The notes beneath the pieces were generated by a model, which had not been told where the DNA came from, made no database searches, and was given only the letters and a program-made list of their open reading frames with translations. From Apostichopus japonicus (Eukaryota > Echinodermata > Holothuroidea > Aspidochirotida > Stichopodidae): a stretch of 64,000 nucleotides of DNA. How positions within the stretch are numbered: the stretch's first letter is position 1; each line of letters begins with the position of its first letter. Shown here piece after piece: positions 11,601-45,824 of the stretch. The stretch is from the NCBI RefSeq assembly GCF_037975245.1, contig NC_092568.1, forward strand, positions 23,524,501 to 23,588,500, in the 5' to 3' direction. The translations under genes were made by a program, and so were the position numbers.

Positions 11601-11766
11601 CAGTACAATACTGGAATGCAAACCAAAGCACTAAAAGGTTTCTTGGAAGCACCGTATGTGTGAAAACAACTTTTTAGATTGTCTTACTTATATTTATGCC
11701 TATGATCAATATATCTTACTTTCATAACACTAGGCAACTAGAAATGCATGATGTTGACAATATACA
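8641..11766. other. intergenic, no gene seen
   Basis: AT-rich with G homopolymer runs near 9497, 9851 and 11341. CAGGGGCGCCACTAAGG near 9808 resembles a hAT end, but no partner end was found. No supportable coding region. Confidence 0.45.
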
Positions 11767-13278
<1,512 letters not shown>

Positions 13279-22189: not shown

Positions 22190-22340
22190 ATGAGTTAGAC
22201 AATTTCAGAACAGTACAAACACTTCCAGCTTCCACTGGGATTCGAACCCGGGCCTCCCGCTTTATATGCGGATACCCTAACCAACGAGGCTATGGACAGT
22301 GATTGTCTGTCCAGAGGTTCGAAACCAATAAGGAAGGTCT
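22190..22340 (-). mobile_element. tRNA-derived SINE, family S copy 2
   Basis: Minus strand: a perfect B box GGTTCGAATCC (22238-22248) and an A box with one key change (TAGCCTCGTTGG). The tail GAAGCTGGAAGT...ACTGTTCTG matches copy 1 at 11.8 kb. The upstream TTGGTTTCGAACCTC word is shared with copy 3 and looks like a second B box. A TCTA/TCTG-rich microsatellite (22339-22410) abuts its 5' side. Confidence 0.65.
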
Positions 22341-22424: not shown

Positions 22425-23621
22425 TCAAAGATGCGTATCTTCTGAATTCACCTCGGTCGCAGCGTATACAGTTGACGATGTCCGTCTAGTGCTCGGCCTG
22501 TCGCTGGTCTTCACAATCCTCTTCTGACATAGTATCGCTTTATAAAGAGCTTTACGGTAAGTCCTATTGACCGCGTTATAAATGTAAGGATTCACAGCAG
22601 AATTTACGTACAATAAAAGCTGAACATACGGTTGGACAGGTTGAAGTTTAGTCTGCCAAAATTCTCTCGTCGCAGAATCACAGAAGAACACAATAACATA
22701 AATTAAGGACAACGTATGAAAAGGCATGTTACAGGTGAAAAACACGGAACCATTGAACACCAACATCTTAGCGACGGTATTGCGCATCTTCGTCCCGTTG
22801 CGCACAAACTGTGGAATGTTTCGTCCAATCAAACGATCGTTTAGCTTACGAATGATTTGAAAGTACATGAAAAAATTTGGAAATAAGGCGAAGAAAAACG
22901 GTAGCGTTTGCATTCCATTAACGACCATGACAATCCACCCGTTCACGGGCCAACAGTAACTGATAAGTTCCGGATGGTGCTCAGACGTGGCATCATTGTA
23001 AACCACGTATGAGGTAAAGTATTCACTCGACGCAGGAATGGTCATTGCGGCCAAGCAAAACGCAACAACCCAAGCAGCTAGTATAACGTACTTGGTGTGA
23101 GACCTACCTGGAGATGTGCGCACACGGTGTTCAATTGGTCTACATATGGCATCATACTTGTCCAGTGTAACCAACGTAACGAGAAACAGAGACGCAAATG
23201 CGCACGTTCTTACCATGGGGAAGATTGTCAGGCAAAATGCAACACCGAATGCGTGCACGTCACTGTGTACCGTGGAAGAATGAAGGCAGGCTAACTTCTC
23301 TCCGATTCCAATGGCTAGGTAACATACGTCTGCAAAGGCAAGACTAATAAGATAAAAATTAGTGATAGTTCGCATACTTTTGACCCGGAAGGTAACAAAC
23401 ATGAACAAGCCATTTCCCAAGAAGCCTAACGACAGAATAACAGGCATAACGATACCGATAACAACATGGTCCATGCGAGAGTAGAAAAACCATTCAATCT
23501 CTTCTCTGGTCTTATTCGAAAAATCGTGGACGTAGTAATTCATTTCACGCAAATTACGATGGTGGTCCGAATACGACGAATAAATCGTACCATTATCCTG
23601 TGAGGCAAGCATCGCACGCAT
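22425..23621 (-). CDS. class A (rhodopsin-like) peptide-type GPCR, intronless
   Basis: A seven-transmembrane G-protein-coupled receptor of 398 residues, counted from the first ATG of the open frame; ATGs at residues 4 and 27 are alternatives. The frame stays open upstream to 23765 without an ATG, so a 5' exon is possible. Seen: a long extracellular N-terminus with sequons NGT (10) and NKT (36); TM1 GN (N70); TM2 LAFAD (D98); Cys130 (3.25), which should bond with Cys223 in loop 2; TM4 Trp184; TM5 Pro248; and TM7 NPYIY (344-348). Two hallmarks deviate: DRY is DKY (154-156), and CWxP in TM6 is CNMP, with Asn298 at the usual Trp6.48 position. The tail is Ser/Thr-rich. The overall pattern resembles neuropeptide receptors (TRH/neuromedin/ghrelin-like), but the ligand cannot be deduced. 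Intronless receptors of this kind are common in expanded echinoderm GPCR families. Confidence 0.9.
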   Translation of the reverse strand: MRAMLASQDNGTIYSSYSDHHRNLREMNYYVHDFSNKTREEIEWFFYSRMDHVVIGIVMPVILSLGFLGNGLFMFVTFRVKSMRTITNFYLISLAFADVCYLAIGIGEKLACLHSSTVHSDVHAFGVAFCLTIFPMVRTCAFASLFLVTLVTLDKYDAICRPIEHRVRTSPGRSHTKYVILAAWVVAFCLAAMTIPASSEYFTSYVVYNDATSEHHPELISYCWPVNGWIVMVVNGMQTLPFFFALFPNFFMYFQIIRKLNDRLIGRNIPQFVRNGTKMRNTVAKMLVFNGSVFFTCNMPFHTLSLIYVIVFFCDSATREFWQTKLQPVQPYVQLLLYVNSAVNPYIYNAVNRTYRKALYKAILCQKRIVKTSDRPSTRRTSSTVYAATEVNSEDTHL

Positions 23622-26600
23622 CAAGACTGTGAAAAACTCAGTATCTCGAAAAACGTAGAAATAATTCTTATAAGGCGAATGGATATATTCTGCTACTGAA
23701 AAGTATATGAGTATGCGATGAACGATTGAAACGTATTGTTTGTCTGCTATAAACACCGGTATCACTCACACCTGGGATACTCCACCTGAAGTTTTACAGA
23801 AACTTGCACTGCAATCTTTCAAATATATACTTGCAAATAATCCATGATTTCACGAATTAAAAAGTAATCCATTAGAAAGAAATCGACTTGACTTAAGTCA
23901 AATCCAAGAAGTGAGTAAGTATATAGTGGTCAAATTCTCAAGTCAAGAATCTGACAAGAGCTGGTGGTTCAAGCTTATAATTTTGACATCCATTAGCTTA
24001 CTCTTTTCACAAAAGAGCTCAAATTGTGGGATATGACAATCCATTTTGAAATTAACAAATTTGTTTGATCGATCGAAGGATTAAGGTTATGCTAAAGCAG
24101 CTTAAGTGATGCTCAATTATACCGGAATCCCATCGCTTGCCCAAGTGTAATGCCTTGTATCCGCGAGACAATCAACATGCGAAGAATTTTTAGTCGTTGA
24201 CTCAAGTTTCTTACGGTTATCTCAGAAACCGAAGGCTACAACACCTATATAAGTAGTTATCTTTACGGGATCAAACCCAAAAATCAATAACCAGTGGGTA
24301 TTCTTCGTCAAGTATCCGTCCAATAGGAAACGTCGTTTTACAGAAGTTATGGACAAACCAATCAATAACTTTGTAAGAGCACAGAATTTTTGACAATGTT
24401 TAGTTGCTATGGAGAGGGCTCGCTTGTCGCGAGTACTTTTCCCTGTAAAAGTGAAAGGAGATGGACGGGGAATGAGGGGTGGGGCGGGAAGGGTGAACTA
24501 TATATGTCTCGCAATTCCACAGACTCAGGTAAATATTGACTCCATTATATAAAGGAAAATATATGAAGCAAGATATGAATGAAAGCATTCGACATAATTC
24601 GCGACGAATGCGGTCTATTATGTCGTAATGTTATGCTCTGTTGTTATTATTGTCCATCTTAGCTATATATTGAAACACACGAGTCACGTGGTGTCCGATA
24701 TTATTAAACGCGAATGTATAGAAATGCAACTAGTAACAGGCTGAACGGCGTCGTTTCCGATCTGGCAAAGTATGCCTCTTTGACGTAGACCACTTCGAAC
24801 TCGTCAACAAGATTTGTCTTTCCTTCTTTCTGTATTTATTTTTCACGTCACTCTACCTCTGTGTGCAGCGGTCAAGTGGTTTTCTAAAACAATCTATGAG
24901 GGGGGGGGGGGAGAAAGTACCGGGAATCTTCGTATTATCGTCTGATTATAGCGATATACACACAGTATAGTTTTGGGCGCCAAATCATTTTGGTCAACAA
25001 GTGTTATTTTATTCATATATGTGGCTCTTCACTTCAGTGTGTAGCAGCCAAGTGGTAATTTAAAAGCACTCGTGTTTCTGATGCAGTAATCTTTTAGATC
25101 CATCTATCGAATCCCACTCCCAAAACGGAACCTCAAATAAGATGCTAGCATGAGAAAAACCCGCATATATTTATCGATTTACCTTGCAAAATACACTGAT
25201 CTATGATATATTAATATAATGTACAGACATCGCTATATATTCGGTGTTTTGAACTTTTTGTTATCGAAACAGAACTTCATGAGCAAAAGCATGCATCTAT
25301 AAACTTACTTAACTACGATATAGACACACACTGTAATGACAATCTGAAAGCAGTTTGTTATATTTGTAGACAGTGTATCAAGTTTGGTATGAAAAAAGTT
25401 AGGAATGGGGTGGGAGGGGAGGAGAAGGGGGGTGGTTGACCCTCACATTATGGTCTAAGTAGCTGACATCCAAGATATTCTTACGCAAACTGCCACCCTA
25501 TATGGAATACACATATTATGTGTAGACTAGGACGACGTCCACTTATCGCACACGGTGGAGTCTGTAATTGTGTCACCCCTGGCGAGCCATGCAAACACAA
25601 CTCAGTCACTTCCATAAAGTTTTTACATGTGTAAGATGGGTAAGAGTTATAACAGACGGCCAAGAATAATTATGAGAAATTCACATTTGCGATAGAGGTA
25701 TCTAAAAGTAGGCTAGCCTATAATAATATTCAGAATCGTCTTTCGATACAAATTGGTCACACATTTTGCACGTCATACCGGGGTAATATTTACGTGTTCG
25801 TTCTGCCTCTAACATCACATATACTGGTACACATATTAGCGCAGATTTGCAATGACAAAAACAGTTAATACTGCAGGGTTAAACGTGATGTCAATACACC
25901 TCCCCCCCCCCCTCCCATCACCCTATACAGATACGCATACGAATACGCACGCGCACACCGACCATCACTGGCACATCACGATCGGCCTAACAATGCACTA
26001 GAAAGAAAAGAAAAAAATCAAACCCAAGATAAGATTCAAATAAGATTGCCGTCCAATCATAAGGTCTCCATTTCGAGTCACTTCAAGATTAATGTATGTC
26101 GTCCATTTACAGAGTTGTTGACAATTTACAATTTATAATCATGGACGTTAAATATGAATCCAAGCGGTTTTGATAAGCCCAATGAGGCTTCTTCGCGAGT
26201 TCCTGCTTGCAGGAGGATCTGACATACATACATACCTTTATTTTCACGTACATATCAGTTTGAAATCGTGTCTAGGACATTTCCGTGTTTCGAGTAAAAC
26301 TCCAGGAGAGAATATTTGTATTTGCATTATTCTTTATTTCTTTATTTACCTCGCATACACGTGGACAACCTTTTTCTCGATGAGAGGGCGACATTTTGAA
26401 ACAGATCTTTCTTTCATTTCAACCACGATAAGATATACGGCATTGCTTGTTGAGGTACAGGTTGCTCTAGGTATATGCTAAACTAGCCACACATAAAACA
26501 AGATAATGATAATTAAAAAAGGGTTTGATAGTATTTGAAGAACTAGTTACACTGTTTTAATCATTTTTTTGACAATGTTTTGTGGTCATAGAGTTTCATG

Positions 26601-29839: not shown

Positions 29840-31161
29840 TTTAATTAAGACTGATAAAATAATTAACTATATCTAATTAATTAACTTCTGGTACCTCTGT
29901 TTCTATCTAACATAAGTTATTTATTCTGTTAATTATAACTTGTCTGTATCTTCTACTATGTGTTTATGAATTACTTGATGTGTAATAGTAACCATGGAAG
30001 ATGGATATAAACTTTATACGACCAGTGTACTTTGCTTGAACGTGCGTACCCTGCATCCTGCACAAACCACACACGGTGGCGAAGCACTCCTCGTACAAAT
30101 TTTTGTCTACGCTCTGCTGACGTCGGATACTAAGGATTTAGATTCGTCAATGAAGCGTCACCTTAAAGTAGCCTTTCATGCAGCTCAGTCTGCGTTATGT
30201 AGTATTGTTCAATGCTGAGGGATTTGAGCTATTCAACCTCTGCTGTTAAACAGAGATTACTACCAACTCTCTGGGATAACTTGAAAGCTACTCTTAAGAG
30301 GCAACCGATTCACATAAAGGTACACAACTTTGAGATTAACGATTGTTGCTTTGTTATCTGTGTGTATCGGTAGTAATTAAGAGGATAATGATACAATTCC
30401 ATTGTCCATAGATCTTGAAGCCAGTTGGGAGCAGATTTCAAGGTAGTTTGCTTATCTCTTATTCACGTGTACCGCCGCGGGACCTACATTTCGTAATCAT
30501 TGACCCTGGGAGGTTCATCATGTCAGTGTTAAACTGACTAGGCATACCTCCGCGTATTGCTCATCTTATTCTACAACTCGTTAAACAATGAAAAGCTATT
30601 TCGTCTGATATCATCCCTTTGCGAAAGTCATGGTTCACGTTTTTCTAACCCTTCAGCTAAGTTTATTAAAGTTACAAACTGGGACAACTATACTCACCCT
30701 TAACAGATCTTCTCCGAAAACGTTTCTATCGAATGGAATGCAAATTTCACTAGGACCTAATAAGTTCACGAAGAACTTCCACGTAGACTGATCTCTCGTC
30801 TACTAATTTATATTTACTACATCAAAACAAGTCGGTAATTGCCTAAAACAAAGTTTCATGTTATCTGCTTCCGTGTTTTTGTTTTGTGTTTGTATATGAG
30901 AGTCCTTCATGATGTGATAAGCTAAGGGTTGACACAAGCGTACGTGTTACGATGCAAGATTACCTCAGTTGTATAAGACTCGCAGAGGATTGAACCTAAG
31001 CCTACATAGAACCAGAAGAATAGCCTTCTTTGTCAAGTAATCCTCAAAGGTACGTCACGTTGCACAGAGGAATTCGCGACACAAGGACACTTAAACTGAC
31101 TTCAAGCTGAACAGACTTAAGCTGACTTCAAGCTGAATATTGTGTCGACATCATTCAAGAA
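29840..31161 (+). promoter_or_regulatory. duplicated 5' flank (block B) of CYP copy 1
   Basis: Homologous to 43261-44231, which lacks about 350 bp corresponding to 30150-30495, and near the gene to 34490-34863. The last 70 bp carry a tandemly repeated CTGACTTCAAGCTGAA word, also doubled in copy 3 but single in copy 2. It presumably holds the promoter and 5' UTR. I found no clear TATA box or full aryl-hydrocarbon-receptor element (TNGCGTG) by eye. Confidence 0.6.
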
Positions 31162-32748
31162 ATGGAGACGCTGATAGACCAGAGTAACCGATCTGTTTTG
31201 TATTTGGGGTCGTGGATAGAAACTACATCCGCGAATCTCTCGTTCATTCTTTCCATTCTGGCTGTGTTTCTGATGGTGAAATCGATTATAGGTAGTAATA
31301 AAAGGAAACCGATTCCACTAGATGCACGAGAAGCACCTGGACCAATTGGTCTTCCGATCATTGGTAACATCATCCAACTTGGAACTGTACCTCACGTATC
31401 GTTCGTGGAGTTGGCTAAGAAGTACGGTGATGTCTTTCGAATTAGGATTGGAAGTCGTTCTGTCATCGTTCTTAATGGAAGACAGGCAATTCATCAAGCT
31501 TTAGTAAGGCAATCTGTTGATTTTGCTGGACGCCCTGAGTTAAATGGTTTCCAAACTACTGTTGCCCTTAACGGAGGATCAGTTGCATTTACGACTTACG
31601 ACGAAGGGTGGAAGTTGCATCGAAAAATAGCAGATAACGCATTACGTCACTTTACCTCAGGTAAACAATCAGTCCTTGTCGAACAACAAGTGAAACTTGA
31701 AGCGACTGAGTTTATCAGCTTTGTTATGAATAATAATAATGCCGCCGTCATTGACCCTTCTAAACTGCTTAAACTTTCTGTGAGCAACATCATGGCAAGT
31801 TTATTGTTTCAAGTGCGTCACGAACTTGACCACGAAGAACTGAAATCAATTGTCAACAACAGCGACCTATTCACAGATGCAATCTCAGGAAGTAATATGA
31901 TTGACTTCATGCCTTGGCTGGGAGTGATATTTCCTGGTAAAATGAAATCGTTTACAGAATTGGCGACGAAATTCAGAGACATACTTGGAGTTCACGTCAA
32001 AAATCATCGCGATAATTACCAACATGGGTTAGACAGCGACATTTTGTATTACCTCATGACACTGTCTGAGGGAATTGATCCAAAGCAAAGACAAGAACTT
32101 AGATTAACGGACGAACGAATACGGTCAGTGGTCTACGACTTTTTCGGGGCAGGATTTGAGACTGTAGCCTCTACTTTGATGTGGGCATTTCTCTATGCTA
32201 TTTATTTCCCAGATTTACAAAAACGGATGCAAGAAGAGATGGACGATGTGATAGGTCGTGACCGTCTGCCGTCCCTGGCTGACCGAGGTAGACTTCCCCT
32301 GACTGAAGCCTTTCTCGCGGAGGTTTCCCGCCATTCCTCTGTTGTGCCAACTACACTACCACACAGCACAGTACGAGATACAATACTGGAAGGCGGGTAT
32401 AATTTATATATTCCTAAGGACACAGTTGTTTTTGTGAATCTGTATTCAATTCACTGTGATCCCGAAGAATGGAGTGAACCTGGTAGGTTTGATCCGAAAA
32501 GATTCCTCTCACCAGATGGCCAAAAACTCGACAACGATAAAGTAGATTCGTTGATGCGATTTGGTGTTGGTCGAAGACGATGTATCGGGTCCGAGGTTGC
32601 ACAGATGGAGCTATTCCTGTACTTTACTGTAATTCTCCATCAGTGTTCATTGAGAAGTACCGAGGGCCAAAAACTTACTCTGAAAGGAGAAGGTTCCTTG
32701 CTGGTGGTAAGGCCACCTAAGTATGATATGGAGATGGTGCTTCGGTAG
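31162..32748 (+). CDS. CYP1-like cytochrome P450, copy 1
   Basis: A heme-thiolate monooxygenase, probably NADPH-reductase dependent and anchored in the endoplasmic reticulum membrane. 528 residues in a single exon, a normal microsomal P450 length. Visible: N-terminal hydrophobic anchor (about 24-43) and basic stop; hinge APGPIGLPIIGN (58-69); C-helix WKLHR (150-154); I-helix FGAGFETV (328-335), as in CYP1 rather than the usual AGTxT; K-helix ExxR E387-R390; HSSVVPTTLPHST (391-403), typical of CYP1; FDPKRF (443-448); and heme loop FGVGRRRCIG with Cys474. The start is set by an ATG conserved in all three copies. An AATAAA at 33251-33256 is conserved downstream of every copy. The I-helix/K-helix pattern supports clan 2, CYP1-like; the exact subfamily and substrate are unknown. 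Confidence 0.95.
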   Translation: METLIDQSNRSVLYLGSWIETTSANLSFILSILAVFLMVKSIIGSNKRKPIPLDAREAPGPIGLPIIGNIIQLGTVPHVSFVELAKKYGDVFRIRIGSRSVIVLNGRQAIHQALVRQSVDFAGRPELNGFQTTVALNGGSVAFTTYDEGWKLHRKIADNALRHFTSGKQSVLVEQQVKLEATEFISFVMNNNNAAVIDPSKLLKLSVSNIMASLLFQVRHELDHEELKSIVNNSDLFTDAISGSNMIDFMPWLGVIFPGKMKSFTELATKFRDILGVHVKNHRDNYQHGLDSDILYYLMTLSEGIDPKQRQELRLTDERIRSVVYDFFGAGFETVASTLMWAFLYAIYFPDLQKRMQEEMDDVIGRDRLPSLADRGRLPLTEAFLAEVSRHSSVVPTTLPHSTVRDTILEGGYNLYIPKDTVVFVNLYSIHCDPEEWSEPGRFDPKRFLSPDGQKLDNDKVDSLMRFGVGRRRCIGSEVAQMELFLYFTVILHQCSLRSTEGQKLTLKGEGSLLVVRPPKYDMEMVLR

Positions 32749-34489: not shown

Positions 34490-34863
34490 ACCTCTCGTCT
34501 ACTAATTTACATTTACCACATCAAAACAAGTAGGTATATAATTGCATAAAAGGTGTTCATTTTATCTGCTCCCGGTTTGTTTGTTTTATCTGCTCCCGGT
34601 TTGTTTGTGTTTGTATATGAAAGTCCCATATGTTGTAATAGTAAGCTAAGGTCATAGCACAAGCGTTGGTGTTAGGATGCATGATTACCTCCGTTGTATA
34701 AGAATCGCTAGCAATTAACCTTAAAGCCTTCATAGAGCAATATAGCTTCCTTTGTCAAGTAATCTTCAAAGGTACACAACGTTGCACAGTGGAATTAAAA
34801 AGGCATGCACTTTATAGACACACTTAAATTGACTACAAGCTGAATGTCGACATCATTCAAAAA
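34490..34863 (+). promoter_or_regulatory. truncated 5' flank (block B) of CYP copy 2
   Basis: Only the proximal ~370 bp of block B is present, so copy 2 has lost or never received the distal upstream region and block A. It contains one tandem duplication of its own (TTTATCTGCTCCCGGTTTG twice, 34559-34605). The CTGACTTCAAGCTGAA word of the other copies occurs once, diverged (TTGACTACAAGCTGAA). Confidence 0.6.
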
Positions 34864-36450
34864 ATGGAGACGCTAATAGACCAGAGTTACCGATCTGTTT
34901 TGTACTTGGGATCGTGGATTGAAACTACTTCCGCGAGTCTCTCGTTCATTCTTACCATTTTGGCTGTGTTTATGATGGTGAAATCGATTATAGGTAGTCG
35001 TCAAAAGAAATCGATTCCACTAGATGCACGAGAAGTACCTGGACCCATTGGTCTTCCGATCATTGGTAATATCCTCCAACTTGGAACTGTGCCTCACGTA
35101 TCGTTCGTAGAGTTGGCTAAGAAGTACGGTGATGTCTTTCGAATTAGGATTGGAAGTCGTTCTGTGATCGTTCTTAATGGAAGACAGGCAATTCATCAAG
35201 CTTTAGTAAGGCAATCTGTTGATTTTGCTGGACGCCCTGGGTTGAATGCTTTCCAAACTTCTGTTGCCCTTAACGGAGGATCAGTTGCATTTACGACTTA
35301 CGACGAAGGGTGGAAGTTGCATCGAAAAATAGCAGATAACGCATTACATCACTTTACCTCAGGTAAACAATCAGTCCTTGTCGAACAACAAGTGACATTC
35401 GAAGCGACTGAGTTCATCAGGTTTGTTATGAATAAAAATAATGCCGTCATCATTGACCCCACTAAACTGCTTAAACTTTCTGTGAGCAACATTATGGCAA
35501 GCTTCTTGTTTCAAGTGCGTCACGAACTTGACCACGAAGAACTGAAGTCAATTGTCAACAACAACGACCTATTCGTAGATGCCTTTTCAGGAAATAACAT
35601 GATTGACTTCATGCCTTGGCTAGGAGTGATATTTCCTGGTAAAATGAAATCGTTTACAGAATTGGCGACGAAATTCAGAAACATACATAAAGTTTACATC
35701 AAAAATCATCTCGATAATTACGAACACGGGTTAGACAGCGACATAATGTACTACCTCATGACACTGTCGGAGGGAATTGATCCGAAGCAAAGACAAGAAC
35801 TTAAATTAACGGACGAACGAATACGGTCAGTGGTCTACGACTTTTTCGGGGCAGGATTTGAGACTGTAGCCTCTACTTTGATGTGGGCATTTCTCTATGC
35901 TATTTATTTCCCAGATTTACAAAAACGGATGCAAGAAGAGATGGACGATGTGATAGGTCGTGACCGTCTGCCGTCCCTGGCAGACCGAGGTAGACTTCCC
36001 CTGACTGAAGCCTTTCTCGCAGAGGTTTCCCGCCATTCCTCTGTTGTGTCAACTACACTACCACACAGCACAATACGAGATACAATACTGGAAGGCGGGT
36101 ATAATTTATACATTCCTAAGGATACAGTTGTTTTTGTGAATCTGTATTCAATTCACTGTGATCCCGAAGAATGGAGCGAACCTGGTAGGTTTGATCCGAA
36201 GAGATTCCTCTCACAAGATGGCAAAAAACTCGACAACGATAAAGTAGATTCGTTGATGCGATTTGGTGTTGGTCGAAGACGATGTATCGGGTCCGAGGTT
36301 GCACAAATGGAGCTATTCCTGTACTTTTCTGTAATTCTCCATCAGTGCTCCCTGAGAAGTACCGAGGGCCAAAAACTTACTCTGAAAGGAGAAGGTTCCT
36401 TGCTGGTGGTAAGGCCACCTAAGTATGATATGGAGATGGTGCTTCGATAG
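34864..36450 (+). CDS. CYP1-like cytochrome P450, copy 2
   Basis: 528 residues, one exon, same motifs and positions as copy 1: hinge VPGPIGLPIIGN, WKLHR, FGAGFETV, EVSR, FGVGRRRCIG. It is the most divergent of the three. Differences cluster in the membrane anchor/linker (SRQKKS at 45-50 in place of SNKRKP), around residues 191-201, and in the F-G region (about 235-296: NNNDLFVDAFSGNN, RNIHKVYIKNHLDNYEHG), which in the P450 fold borders the substrate entrance. From residue ~300 to the end it is nearly identical to the other copies, even at silent sites. AATAAA at 36918-36923. Function as for copy 1; possibly altered substrate access (inference). Confidence 0.95.
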   Translation: METLIDQSYRSVLYLGSWIETTSASLSFILTILAVFMMVKSIIGSRQKKSIPLDAREVPGPIGLPIIGNILQLGTVPHVSFVELAKKYGDVFRIRIGSRSVIVLNGRQAIHQALVRQSVDFAGRPGLNAFQTSVALNGGSVAFTTYDEGWKLHRKIADNALHHFTSGKQSVLVEQQVTFEATEFIRFVMNKNNAVIIDPTKLLKLSVSNIMASFLFQVRHELDHEELKSIVNNNDLFVDAFSGNNMIDFMPWLGVIFPGKMKSFTELATKFRNIHKVYIKNHLDNYEHGLDSDIMYYLMTLSEGIDPKQRQELKLTDERIRSVVYDFFGAGFETVASTLMWAFLYAIYFPDLQKRMQEEMDDVIGRDRLPSLADRGRLPLTEAFLAEVSRHSSVVSTTLPHSTIRDTILEGGYNLYIPKDTVVFVNLYSIHCDPEEWSEPGRFDPKRFLSQDGKKLDNDKVDSLMRFGVGRRRCIGSEVAQMELFLYFSVILHQCSLRSTEGQKLTLKGEGSLLVVRPPKYDMEMVLR

Positions 36451-41803: not shown

Positions 41804-42503
41804 ATTGCATATACTTGATCACAATAATATGGTACGGAAGCGCATATATAGCTTCTTTAAAAACTGTTTGTCTTTCGGTCTTAGGAGCGTACATGCCATA
41901 ATCTGGCATGCGGATTGATTTATCTGTACGCCTCCCATGAAAAAAATCAAGAAATCTGGCAATTCGGGTGTACACACATAAAACGAGAACTATGATTTAA
42001 CCGTAATCTAAAGTCCAATTTATGTTTCGATCTTAGCTTTCAATGCTGAAAGTGAAGACAACATAATGATATTCTAATTAAATTATACCAGATACTATTA
42101 ATCACGCTCTCGATTAATTAAACACACTGGCCACCAAACTCAACGATCACTTGTGGATTTAATTAGTTTGCTTAGTGTTCGATTATAACGGATGTATAAC
42201 CACGTGTGTAGGCGTAACCAGCTCTTTGAAACATCACGTGGATGTGGCAAAGTAGAACCAGTGGTCCTAAACGTTTTATTAAATCGTCAAAGCTAATAAT
42301 TTTCCATTCGGCATCCCATACAAATTGCTCTTTAAAGGCAACACAAACCCAACTATTATCATCACGTAGACCAATGATGATGGTTGGGTTTGTGTGACCA
42401 ACTTCCCAAAAAAGCTAAGTAAAACCTTATTTTGGAGATATTATAGATATCTATACCTTGGATATATATGGAAAAATATATATGGATAAATATATATATA
42501 TAA
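41804..42503. other. unit-3-specific insertion, left part
   Basis: No counterpart in unit 1. It holds no gene that I recognise and a hairpin at 42341-42397 (ACACAAACCCAAC with its exact inverse). Confidence 0.5.
42341..42397. repeat. 13-bp perfect-arm hairpin
   Basis: ACACAAACCCAAC and GTTGGGTTTGTGT flank a 31-bp loop that itself begins and ends with near-complementary ATCATC/GATGATG words. Function unknown; possibly a tiny MITE. Confidence 0.55.
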
Positions 42504-42576
42504 GAATTGAATGTGTAGCAAGTGGTATGACAGATATATAGTAATTCAATAAAGAATAACACACCAGAAAATTCCA

Positions 42577-42618
42577 CTTCACGACCGGTTTCGTCCTTTT
42601 GGGACTCATCAGGCGAAG
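42577..42618 (-). ncRNA. hammerhead ribozyme motif, copy A
   Basis: Minus strand, 5' to 3': stem I CUUCGC (42613-42618), core CUGAUGA (42606-42612), stem II GUCC-CAAAA-GGAC (42593-42605), core GAAA (42589-42592), palindromic stem III half ACCGGU (42584-42589, sharing the last A), C17 (42583), stem I partner GUGAAG (42577-42582). All invariant hammerhead core bases are present. Stem III cannot form within one copy, because ACCGGU is self-complementary without a loop. It would form between two copies (dimeric hammerhead), and cleavage is predicted after GGUC. Confidence 0.88.
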
Positions 42619-42621
42619 GTA

Positions 42622-42674
42622 GGAACGAACCCCGGATCTTCGTGTCACGAACCGAAGTCCGTACCACTCGACCA
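42622..42674 (-). promoter_or_regulatory. internal Pol III promoter, copy A
   Basis: Perfect A box TGGTCGAGTGG (42664-42674). The B box, GGTTCGTTCC (42622-42631), has lost one base relative to copy B. Confidence 0.7.
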
Positions 42675-42899
42675 CAGTGATTCTACTGGTGTGTTAAAGC
42701 GTATAAATTGGCTTTGAATAACTGTCATTAAGGGCGTATGATTGTACAGAGTGCACCCCTGGCGCTTTAAATCTGACAATTTTACACAGAATAACCACTC
42801 TTTAGGCAAGCCAAGCCGTAAAAAGGAATTGAATGTGTAGCAAGTGGTATGACAGATTTATAGTAATTCAATAAAAAATAACACACCAGAAAAATTCCA

Positions 42900-42940
42900 C
42901 TTTACGACCGGTTTCGTCCTTTGGGACTCATCAGGCAAAG
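42900..42940 (-). ncRNA. hammerhead ribozyme motif, copy B
   Basis: Same layout: stem I CUUUGC (42935-42940), CUGAUGA (42928-42934), stem II GUCC-CAAA-GGAC (42916-42927), GAAA (42912-42915), ACCGGU (42907-42912), C17 (42906), stem I partner GUAAAG (42900-42905). Relative to copy A, stem I has a C-to-U change on one strand and the matching G-to-A change on the other, so pairing is kept. A T5 run (42890-42894, minus strand) follows and could stop Pol III. Confidence 0.9.
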
Positions 42941-42943
42941 TTA

Positions 42944-42997
42944 GGAATTGAACCCCGGATCTTCGTGTCACGAACCGAAGCCCGTACCACTCGACCA
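42944..42997 (-). promoter_or_regulatory. internal Pol III promoter, copy B
   Basis: Perfect A box TGGTCGAGTGG (42987-42997) and consensus B box GGTTCAATTCC (42944-42954). A transcript starting just upstream and ending at the T5 run would be about 110-120 nt: a tRNA-like head plus the hammerhead. Confidence 0.75.
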
Positions 42998-43135
42998 CAG
43001 TGATTCTACTGGTGTGTTAAAGTTTATAAATTGGCTTTGAATAACTGTCATTAAGGGCGTATTACCCAAGTGTTATGATTGTACAGAGTGCACCCCTGGC
43101 GATTTAAATCTGACAATTTTACACAGAAAAACCAA

Positions 43136-43200
43136 GTCCCAAAAGGACGAAACCGGTCGTGAAGTGGAATTTTTCTGGTGTATTATTCTTTATTGAATTA
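43136..43200 (+). mobile_element. inverted, truncated hammerhead-element copy C
   Basis: Plus-strand sequence GTCCCAAAAGGACGAAACCGG and onward equals the 3' half of the element: stem II, GAAA, ACCGGTC, GTGAAG, T5 run, CTGGTGTATTATT. The CTGATGA core and the tRNA-like part are missing; the preceding bases are ACCAA. It faces the dimer and forms its right border, followed by a short (AT)n run. It cannot self-cleave alone. Confidence 0.8.
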
Positions 43201-43260
43201 CTATATATATATATATGTAAATTTATATATATGCACAAAATGTAAATGTATATGTTTGTA

Positions 43261-44231
43261 TTTAATTAAGACTTATAAAATAATTAACTAAATAATTAAT
43301 TAACTTCTGGTACCTCTGTTTCTATCTAACATAATTTATATATTCTACTATACGTTTTATTTATCTTTCTACTATGATCTGTGTTGATGAATTACTTTAT
43401 GTGTAATAGGACCCATGGAAGATGGATATAAACTTGATACTACGAAGACCAGTGTCCTTTGCTTTAACGTGCATACCATGTATCCTGCACACACGGTGAC
43501 GAAGCACTCCCCGTACAAATTTGTGTCTACGCTCTGGTGACATCGGACACTAACGATTTAAATTGCGTAATTGACCCTTGGAGGTTCATCATGTCAGTGT
43601 TATACCGACTGGGCATAACTCCGCGTATTGTTCATCTTATTCTACAGCTCGTTAAACACTGATAAAGCTATTTCATCTGATATTATCGCTTTGCGAAAGT
43701 CATGGTTCACGTTTTTCTAACCCTTCAGCTAAGTGTACCAAAGTTACAAACTGGGACAACTATACTCACCCTTAACAGATCTTCTCCGAAAACGTTTCTA
43801 TGGAATGGAAAGCAAACTTCACCAGGACCTATTTAGTTCAACAAGAACTTCCACATGGAATGATCTCTCGTCTACCAATTTATATTTACCACATCAAAAC
43901 AAGTCGCTAATTGCCTATGACAAGTTTCATGTAATCTGCTCCCGTTTTTTGTTTTGTGTTTGTATATGAGAGTCCTTCATGATGTTATAAGCTAAGGTCA
44001 TGACACAAGCGTACGTGTTACGATGCAAGATTACCTCAGTTGTATAAGACTCGCAAAGGATTGAACCTTAGCCTACATAGAACTAGCAAATAGCCTTCTT
44101 TGTCAAGTAATCCTCAAAGGTACGTCACGTTGCACAGAGGAATTCGCGATACAGAGACAGTTAAACTGACTTCAAGCTGAACAGACTTAACTGACTTCAA
44201 GCTGAATATTGTGGCGACATCATTCAAGAAA
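43261..44231 (+). promoter_or_regulatory. duplicated 5' flank (block B) of CYP copy 3
   Basis: Homologous to 29840-31161 with an internal deletion of about 350 bp. It keeps the doubled CTGACTTCAAGCTGAA word just before the start codon, as in copy 1. Confidence 0.6.
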
Positions 44232-45824
44232 ATGGAGACGCTGATAGACCAGAGTAACCGGCGATCTGTTTTGTATTTGGGATCGTGGATAGAAACTACT
44301 TCCGCGAGTAGTCTCTCGTTCATTCTTTCCATAGTGGCTGTGTTTCTGATGGTAAAATTGATTATAGGTAGTAATAAAAGGAAACCGATTCCACTAGATG
44401 CACGAGAAGTACCTGGACCAATTGGTTTTCCGATCATTGGTAATATCATCCAACTTGGAACTGTACCTCACGTATCGTTCGTGGAGTTGGCTAAGAAGTA
44501 CGGTGATGTCTTTCAAATTAGGATTGGAAGCCGTTCTGTCATCGTTCTTAATGGAAGACAGGCAATTTATCAAGCTTTAGTAAGGCAATCTGTTGATTTT
44601 GCTGGACGCCCTGAGTTGAATGGTTTCCAAACTTCTGTTGCCCTTAACGGAGGATCAGTTGCATTTACGACTTACGACGAAGGGTGGAAGTTGCATCGAA
44701 AAATAGCAGATAACGCATTACGCCACTTTACCTCAGGTAAACAATCAGTCCTTGTCGAACAACAAGTGACATTCGAAGCGACTGAGTTCATCAGGTTTGT
44801 TATGAATAATAATAACGCCGCCGTCATTGACACTTCTAAACTGCTTAAACTTTCTGTGAGCAACATTATGGCAAGTTTATTGTTTCAAGTGCGTCACGAA
44901 CTTGACCACGAAGAACTGAAATCAATTGTCAGCAACAGCGACCTATTCATAGATGCCATCTCAGGAAGTAATATGATTGACTTCATGCCTTGGCTAGGAG
45001 TGATATTTCCTGGTAAAATGAAATCGTTTACAGAATTGGCGACGAAATTCAGAGACATACTTGGAGTTCACGTCAAAAATCATCGCGATAATTACCAAAA
45101 TGGGTTAGACAGCGACATTTTGTATTACCTCATGACACTGTCGGAGGGAATTGATCCGAAGCAAAGACAAGAACTTAAATTAACGGACGAACGAATACGG
45201 TCAGTGGTCTACGACTTTTTCGGGGCAGGATTTGAGACTGTCGCCTCTACTTTGATGTGGGCATTTCTCTATGCTATTTATTTCCCAGATTTACAAAAAC
45301 GGATGCAAGAAGAGATGGACGATGTGATAGGTCGTGACCGTCTGCCGTCCCTGGCTGACCGAGGTAGACTACCACTGACTGAAGCCTTTCTCGCGGAGGT
45401 TTCCCGCCATTCTTCTGTTGTGCCAACTACACTACCACACAGCACAATACGAGATACCATACTGGAAGGCGGGTATAATTTATATATTCCTAAGGACACA
45501 GTTGTTTTTGTGAATCTGTATTCAATTCACTGTGATCCCGAAGAATGGAACGAACCTGGTAAGTTTGATCCGAAAAGATTCCTCTCACAAGATGGCAAAA
45601 AACTCGACAACGATAAAGTAGATTCGTTGATGCGATTTGGTGTTGGTCGGAGACGATGTATCGGGTCCGAGGTTGCACAAATGGAGCTATTCCTGTACTT
45701 TTCTGTAATTCTCCATCAGTGCTCCTTGAGAAGTACCGAGGGCCAAAAACTTACTCTGAAAGGAGAAGGTTCCTTGCTGGTTGTAAGGCCACCTAAGTAT
45801 GATATGGAGATGGTGCTTCGATAG
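44232..45824 (+). CDS. CYP1-like cytochrome P450, copy 3
   Basis: 530 residues, one exon. Two in-frame codon insertions relative to the others (RR at 10-11 and an extra Ser near 26) lie in the luminal/anchor segment. All P450 motifs are intact (hinge VPGPIGFPIIGN, WKLHR, FGAGFETV, EVSR, FGVGRRRCIG). The start is ATG 44232, homologous to the other copies; an in-frame GTG seven codons earlier is not a credible start. The F-G region and the 5' flank resemble copy 1 more than copy 2, so copies 1 and 3 look like the closer pair, although GKFDPKRF and several C-terminal changes are shared with copy 2 or private. AATAAA at 46325-46330. Predicted function as for copy 1. Confidence 0.95.
   Translation: METLIDQSNRRSVLYLGSWIETTSASSLSFILSIVAVFLMVKLIIGSNKRKPIPLDAREVPGPIGFPIIGNIIQLGTVPHVSFVELAKKYGDVFQIRIGSRSVIVLNGRQAIYQALVRQSVDFAGRPELNGFQTSVALNGGSVAFTTYDEGWKLHRKIADNALRHFTSGKQSVLVEQQVTFEATEFIRFVMNNNNAAVIDTSKLLKLSVSNIMASLLFQVRHELDHEELKSIVSNSDLFIDAISGSNMIDFMPWLGVIFPGKMKSFTELATKFRDILGVHVKNHRDNYQNGLDSDILYYLMTLSEGIDPKQRQELKLTDERIRSVVYDFFGAGFETVASTLMWAFLYAIYFPDLQKRMQEEMDDVIGRDRLPSLADRGRLPLTEAFLAEVSRHSSVVPTTLPHSTIRDTILEGGYNLYIPKDTVVFVNLYSIHCDPEEWNEPGKFDPKRFLSQDGKKLDNDKVDSLMRFGVGRRRCIGSEVAQMELFLYFSVILHQCSLRSTEGQKLTLKGEGSLLVVRPPKYDMEMVLR

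Follow-up and report, generated by a model that had tools for sequence, protein, structure and literature searches.

A 64,000-nucleotide stretch of the genome of the sea cucumber Apostichopus japonicus (positions 23,524,501 to 23,588,500 of NC_092568.1; hereafter the window) holds an element which is a non-LTR retrozyme, with a unit of ~340 nt and hundreds of copies across the genome. As far as we have searched, this is a known kind of element that is new to A. japonicus, and its unusually clear insertion record ties the retrozyme to the type of reverse transcription known from Penelope-like elements (PLEs). Observed in the genomic copies are the anatomy of the insertions, two end sites, TA-rich junctions, inverted pieces, an end pattern that recurs in a resident PLE, and rare variants that units have in common in several insertions. 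Because the anatomy of the insertions matches both the published PLE pattern and the resident element PLE1, a PLE reverse transcriptase (RT) probably copies the retrozyme. We regard as likely the complete model, in which PLE-type insertion would follow transcription, cutting and circularization of the retrozyme RNA.

The retrozyme insertion in the window

A search of the whole window with the Rfam model RF00163 found two type I hammerheads above the curated cut-off, both on the minus strand. As the first-pass annotation of this DNA had stated, they lie one unit apart, both retain CUGAUGA, stem II GUCC/GGAC and GAAA, and their stem I sequences differ. The features of the insertion are as follows, with unit coordinates (q) counted from q1, the first base after the cut site GUC^G.

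42497..43134, minus strand: retrozyme insertion of ~1.9 units, defined by direct repeats and by a chain of unit coordinates from q111 to q87
43134-42906, 42905-42583 and 42582-42497, minus strand: its partial unit, full unit and 3' piece
42583..42905, minus strand: complete unit from cut site to cut site, 323 nt, with a low GC content (0.421)
42900..42940, minus strand: type I hammerhead 1 (RF00163, 37.7 bits, E 6.7e-6), stem I CUUUGC/GUAAAG, predicted cut 42906/42905
42577..42618, minus strand: type I hammerhead 2 (RF00163, 38.8 bits, E 2.8e-6), stem I CUUCGC/GUGAAG, predicted cut 42583/42582
42497..42545, minus strand: 3' end region of the main piece, with site 1 (ATTACTATA) and a tail of ~30 nt to site 2 (ATTCAATTCTTA), the site used here
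43135..43208, plus strand: 5' inverted piece of 74 nt, from q318 via the cut site to q50, its outer edge being site 1 and tail-less
42462..42502: flank rich in TA, next to the end at site 2
43202..43232: flank rich in TA, next to the inverted end at site 1

Read along the minus strand, the insertion consists of the inverted piece (outer edge q50 to q318, with merely a partial hammerhead), a stretch from q111 to the end of the unit, one full unit and q1-q87. Both outer edges are start sites, one with the 30-nt tail and one without. The direct repeats are spaced by 322-323 nt, or by 337 nt for the part beyond a 15-nt deletion, and the window unit lacks the ~15 nt found in full units at two other loci (339 nt in L016, 341 nt in L025). 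The largest open frame overlapping the element, and the sole one of at least 100 aa, encodes 106 aa; there is no open reading frame (ORF) for an RT with a GIY-YIG endonuclease, and the retrozyme is a passenger, not itself a PLE. The two halves of the insertion diverge unequally from the family member L096 (16 vs 3 substitutions, p = 0.004), with 16 of the 19 substitutions in the half nearest the inverted piece, a pattern of sequence differences which suggests that the template may have been mixed and that the two halves may have different histories.

The surroundings of the insertion contain other features. Three tandem single-exon P450 (CYP1-like) ORFs occur at 31126-32748, 34828-36450 and 44181-45824, one of which matches an A. 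japonicus protein (98% over 72%), and the insertion sits between the second and the third. An inverted repeat with 22-nt arms, 91% complementary around an 11-nt spacer, lies close to the insertion at 42341-42395, and a 446-aa open frame at 22425-23765 on the minus strand appears by eye to be like a seven-helix receptor.

A dispersed and recently active family

The hammerhead core pattern CTGANGAGTCCN{3,9}GGACGAAAC occurs at 343 places in the 671.6-Mb genome and the same pattern read backwards at none, so the window motif is far beyond chance; a pattern for the 5' half gave 453 places vs 0 for its reversal. A genome scan with the type I model RF00163, proposed at the outset as a check on the two motifs, gave at least 59 matches, at least 50 of them above the cut-off, among the 74 of 66307 candidates that were scored. 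The exact 30-nt motif was found in none of the viral contigs scanned. Two sets of loci were analyzed. The first contains 52 independent loci, being 59 RF00163 loci and the window minus eight duplicates (L007, L017, L018, L019, L034, L036, L044 and L055); the second contains 20 of the 40 main matches from a search with the window dimer, in which 40 of 1266 candidates were scored. Four further loci were added from the window-dimer matches for having an inverted piece.

Most insertions are short. About one unit or less is present at 44 of the 52 independent loci, the unit size is 323-341 nt, and the longest insertion among the 52 and 20 loci is 1017 nt, about 3 units. Lengths up to 1017 nt indicate that the template would be a circle or a multimer. 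One locus, L096, carries ~2.5 units, two of which differ at 1 of 336 positions, and its four hammerheads score 38.8 bits each by Rfam. The near identity of these units points to recent activity, in agreement with the recently active ribozyme family that the first-pass annotation had entertained. Of 40 unit pairs compared within insertions, several of which come from one locus, 33 are more alike than the median pair from different insertions, while seven do not fit, and rare variants are common to units of the same insertion in several loci. This closeness and these variants are as expected if one template had been traversed repeatedly.

Two individual cases deserve mention. L060 and L061 (C1:12.10-12.12 Mb) are repeated blocks with the same retrozyme dimer and represent a segmental duplication of one locus. 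At L041 a retrozyme piece lies at the end of, and on the opposite strand to, an ORF that looks by eye as if it contains RT motifs, with no Pfam RT match above the cut-off.

Two 3' end sites next to TA repeats

Most retrozyme copies have their 3' end at one of two sites, which lie ~50 and ~82 nt beyond the position cut by the ribozyme and adjoin (TA)n; the 5' ends are free. Alignments end at q42-58 (25 loci) or q77-92 (11 loci) in 36 of the 52 independent loci (p = 6.5e-25); of the 16 other ends, nine are in q6-36, a further three in q74-76 and the last four beyond q160. In the second set 16 of 20 ends fall within these two windows of coordinates, the one for L098 being the end of a small separate piece, and two multi-unit loci of the 20 (L103 and L107) end at q326-327, inside the ribozyme. 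The end sites were read off the first set, and the exact windows were fixed at the time of the test with both sets already seen. By comparison, 4 of 72 main pieces have their 5' start in the same windows, where ~7 are expected (departure of the 5' starts from uniform, p = 0.047). When scored by tail content, the 57 hammerhead copies in the 52 loci include 34 without the tail, counting some (e.g. L041 and L058) for which an end at site 1 is not clear, 16 with the tail, and 7 that run on. Because the commonest end points are located beyond the cut, the template would be an uncut or religated RNA and not a cut linear monomer.

The DNA beyond these ends is TA-rich, with a mean AT content in the next 30 nt of 0.85 for copies without the tail and 0.89 for those with it, in a window where 0.8% of 30-mers reach 0.9. 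Within (TA)n a junction can be placed only to within several bases, and the TA-rich flanks would hide any target duplication. An AT-rich target is one mark of PLE insertion and is present here, the TA repeat being either the target or sequence added at insertion.

Inverted 5' pieces and alternation of the tail

An inverted 5' piece is present at 26 loci (15 of the first set, 7 of the second and the 4 picked for having one). Before the last four were added, the outer edge of this piece coincided with a start site at 12 of 22 loci, where a fraction of 0.097 is expected (p = 1.7e-7); after realignment and addition of the four loci the count is 16 of 26, or 17 if L119 (q97) is included. The 10 other outer edges are at q35, q97 and q172-262.

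The two outer edges of an insertion also tend to differ. At 13 of 16 retrozyme loci, the window among them, one outer edge has the tail and the other has none (p = 0.011 against one half), and L031, L104 and L119 do not alternate. L099, whose main end is at q58, was omitted from this count, and L031, which also has an edge at q58, was counted against alternation; the result is 13 of 15 without both loci and 14 of 17 with L099 taken as alternating.

These pieces bear on the possibility that a LINE mobilizes the retrozyme by target-primed reverse transcription, with the inverted 5' pieces being products of LINE-type twin priming. Twin priming gives inverted pieces with edges near the start of the sense piece, and some outer edges do lie inside the unit near that start (L012, L048 and L052, and L039 with a longer template); 5' truncation is seen in LINEs and PLEs alike. 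On the other hand, the outer edge coincides with one or other of the 3' start sites at 16 of 26 loci, and two internal starts with an optional tail form a PLE pattern that recurs in the resident PLE1; from this comparison, which covered resident PLEs, we consider mobilization by a LINE unlikely. Plain satellite DNA, with tandem units formed by unequal crossing over and an incidental ribozyme, would account for tandem units of one sequence and for loci in segmental duplications (L016-L019), and is nonetheless very improbable since 44 of 52 loci are dispersed pieces no longer than about one unit, 36 of 52 have their ends at the two sites, and neither partial units nor inverted pieces are expected from crossing over.

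A resident Penelope-like element with the same end pattern

PLE1 is a PLE in the same genome whose 910-aa ORF, at L064, contains RVT_1 and GIY-YIG domains; its other copies were assigned by eye, as was the reference point (CCCGAAACGTC) from which its ends are measured. PLE1 ends past CCCGAAACGT[CT] in 19 of 21 copies, the other 2 being without the region. Among these copies, 12 tail-less ends lie 44-52 nt past the corresponding GUC (9 at 52 and the rest at 44, 49 and 51), 7 copies hold a tail that reaches 81 nt past it, and L089 runs on without a TA repeat. A genome search with the PLE1 end gave 40 scored matches, of which 22 reach no further than the first site, 17 include the tail and 1 is different, the query itself stopping at the tail end so that copies ending there and copies running on count alike. 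In all four independent PLE1 copies with inverted pieces, just one of the outer edges carries the tail; for two of them (C16 and C22) two ends were read and taken to bound one insertion. When retrozyme and PLE1 loci are pooled, the tail alternates in 17 of 20 (p = 0.0013).

Other PLE families end elsewhere, near 124 nt (L065, L077 and L078) or at 47 nt (L079), with the cut site placed by eye, and the end spacing of the retrozyme matches only one PLE family among those seen. This comparison of end patterns with resident elements covered PLE families.

The resemblance is one of geometry. The retrozyme end region has no significant similarity to PLE1, as 115 of 1000 shuffles score as high. Both ends contain TGCTAC[AG]CA, at 64 in the retrozyme and 63 in PLE1, a motif picked after the fact. 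An exact match of 13 nt (CTTGCCTATAAAG) with the PLE at L065 is reached by 7 of 1000 shuffles and was one of 12 tests; none of these 12 comparisons made a convincing case for a common origin of retrozyme and PLE, and we set this idea aside. Rfam found no hammerhead in the PLE loci L065, L070, L073, L077, L078 and L079, and at L032 it reports one in the retrozyme copy only. Hammerhead-like cores can be picked out by eye in PLE 3' ends (CTGAAGA...CGAAA in L077-L079, CTGACGA...AGAAA in L032).

A palindromic stem III predicted to favour dimers

The hexamer ACCGGU is self-complementary, and CCGGTC is present in 35 of 49 hammerhead copies. Within a single motif, ACCGGU provides one base pair and a CCGG loop in stem III. 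Folding predictions with ViennaRNA point in the same direction: for two strands of the family consensus, the structure of lowest energy (-40.1 kcal/mol) is a double hammerhead whose stem III is ACCGGU:ACCGGU, whereas a lone consensus strand is predicted to favour a fold without the hammerhead (-18.0 vs -14.2 kcal/mol). In these predicted folds stem I can carry an internal loop UAC/U, and the predicted circular fold of an L096 unit has -92.6 kcal/mol vs -76.7 (SD 5.8) for 50 mononucleotide shuffles. The two-strand and single-strand predictions suggest that the palindromic stem III favours dimers, as in newts.

It had been proposed that stem III can form only between adjacent copies, which would make the tandem dimer in the DNA the configuration needed for cleavage. 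The preference for a dimer agrees with the two-strand fold. The need for a genomic tandem is not supported: more than 350 nt of the element is present at only 8 of the 52 independent loci, which were chosen by their hammerhead, and since the palindrome of one copy can pair with that of any other, whether on the same RNA or on a second one, a tandem in the genome would be unnecessary.

No sign of selection on stem I pairing

The U-A pair that distinguishes one window hammerhead had been read as a compensatory change, and the covariation as evidence for selection on RNA structure. This claim was evaluated across 63 distinct hammerheads, pre-filtered for a recognisable core and at least 4 of 6 stem I pairs, with identical sequences counted once, the eight duplicate loci excluded and one chance match (L024, 1815-1877) removed. 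Stem I pairing is 93.8% vs 93.5% in shuffles, and 93 of 500 shuffles reach the observed value. Two-sided changes occur at three stem I pairs, in one copy each, a count that 55 of 500 shuffles reach, and the three remaining measures are reached by 71, 51 and 64 of 500. Stem I differences that fail to pair, named beforehand as counter-evidence, are present in 18 of 378 cells. Looser counts agree, with a mismatch in stem I in 12 of 49 copies, and in 19 of 85 when the L024 chance match is included.

Since pairing does not exceed that in shuffles, there is no sign that it is being maintained in the dispersed copies, and the sequences are consistent with a stem inherited from an active parent. Selection on stem I pairing is therefore unsupported. 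The pair in question is CG in 55 of the 63 copies and UG in 5; the window has the sole UA, and 2 copies are unpaired here. That it was kept because the window locus needs a working ribozyme is highly doubtful: changes on both sides preserve the pair and U.G intermediates exist in 5 of 63 copies, but covariation is not above shuffles, the C to U step lies at a CpG and recurs in 5 of 61 copies, and other copies have mismatched stems.

Promoter-like motifs within the unit

Just before the ribozyme, each unit in the window contains two motifs which we take to be similar to the A and B boxes of internal promoters:

42987..42997, minus strand: A-box-like TGGTCGAGTGG, first unit
42944..42954, minus strand: B-box-like GGTTCAATTCC, first unit, whose ATTCC can pair with GGAAT beyond stem I
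42664..42674, minus strand: A-box-like TGGTCGAGTGG, second unit
42622..42631, minus strand: B-box-like GGTTCGTTCC, second unit, with one base fewer than the consensus of the family

In the consensus the boxes begin at positions 248 and 291, 43 nt from start to start, a tRNA-like spacing when judged by the box consensus that we assume. Over the 20 multi-unit loci together with 8 from the first set, identity is 0.962 in the A box and 0.956 in the B box, compared with 0.908 in q88-240, 0.924 in the stretch separating the boxes and 0.928 for the whole. Five consecutive T occur in the consensus at q12-16, shortly after the cut site, so a Pol III transcript of the whole unit would stop early. A TATAAAG motif lies near q102 in the consensus and is absent from L096.

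Neither ARAGORN nor the Rfam tRNA model found a tRNA in the retrozyme element, in the window and eight loci. Separate tRNA-like sequences occur at 22226-22300 (minus strand) and 11766-11824 (plus strand) of the window and at 1997-2071 of L025, two of them called as tRNA-Tyr with anticodon ATA; they perhaps form a SINE family of their own, derived from a tRNA. Shortly after one of these sequences, at 11880-13278, TATC is repeated about 350 times.

Relationship to known systems

The published accounts below are cited for the portions of their text that were available. A link between PLEs and retrozymes was proposed in 2020, without insertion-site evidence (Cervera and de la Pena 2020, PMC7229834), when coexistence, tandem copies and hammerheads in common made PLEs strong candidates for mobilising metazoan non-LTR retrozymes. 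The sea cucumber family resembles those retrozymes in its type I hammerhead, a repeat within 170-400 nt, low GC, many copies, dimers to short multimers and PLEs in the same genome (PMC7229834), and is unlike them in that its insertions display PLE anatomy. Most invertebrate hammerheads in that account self-cut efficiently alone, whereas the sea cucumber one has the palindromic stem III of the amphibian type. Axolotl ribozymes have a stem III of one base pair and a cap, and their cleavage is far better in the dimeric form; the satellite hammerheads of newts and axolotl share with the present ones the one-base-pair stem III, the palindromic tetraloop, better function as dimers and a unit of ~330 nt (PMC7229834). 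Here the host is an echinoderm, and the likeness is one of description. The schistosome Sm-alpha/Sj-alpha elements are likewise dispersed and SINE-like with a hammerhead; they are tRNA-derived (PMC2770079), whereas in the sea cucumber element no tRNA was recognised in the window or the eight loci searched.

With regard to insertion, PLEs have two adjacent internal RT starts, cut and extend both strands, and use AT-rich targets (PMC11167929), and a 31-bp tail is optionally present at one of their inverted pLTRs (PMC3846280), so alternation of a tail was already known for PLEs. The retrozyme shares with them starts ~30 nt apart, an optional tail at one edge, an inverted 5' repeat, partial tandems and AT-rich targets (PMC11167929, PMC3846280). 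It differs in having neither an RT nor an endonuclease ORF and no significant similarity to PLE1.

In the available text, echinoderms are not named in the retrozyme account of PMC7229834, the word retrozyme is absent from PMC11167929, and the word echinoderm is absent from PMC7761336. A literature search that lay largely outside the subscription journals found no echinoderm retrozyme, no such insertion evidence and no demonstration of a link between PLEs and retrozymes.

How the retrozyme may be copied

For transcription, cutting, circularization and copying by a PLE enzyme, we infer the following series of events. The ~340-nt retrozyme RNA would be transcribed as a longer-than-unit RNA, perhaps from the internal A- and B-box motifs; hammerhead pairs joined through the palindromic ACCGGU stem III would cut it, and a host ligase would probably close the circles. 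A PLE protein, comprising RT and GIY-YIG endonuclease, would then cut both strands of AT-rich DNA, and reverse transcription would begin within the retrozyme RNA, ~50 or ~82 nt past the cut, with each DNA strand receiving one start. The sense units would come from whichever strand is copied further, in tandem when the copy exceeds a full unit, and the short inverted 5' piece from the other strand.

A more specific proposal, which in our judgement is evenly balanced between right and wrong, is that animal retrozymes are the SINEs of PLEs. A dimer of the PLE protein would load circular or multimeric hammerhead RNA and begin one cDNA on each target strand, from paired starts ~30 nt apart, usually one per strand; rolling round the circle would produce units in tandem together with an inverted piece. 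The minimal recognition cassette would be the ~90 nt that follow the cut, acting by shape and spacing and not by sequence.

How animal retrozymes re-enter DNA is an open question, and the dispersed copies in A. japonicus keep a readable record of this reaction, so that a single purified protein and a single RNA would suffice to test the link between retrozymes and PLEs directly. They also suggest that a PLE RT can use an RNA without clear similarity to its own, given the right geometry past the ribozyme.
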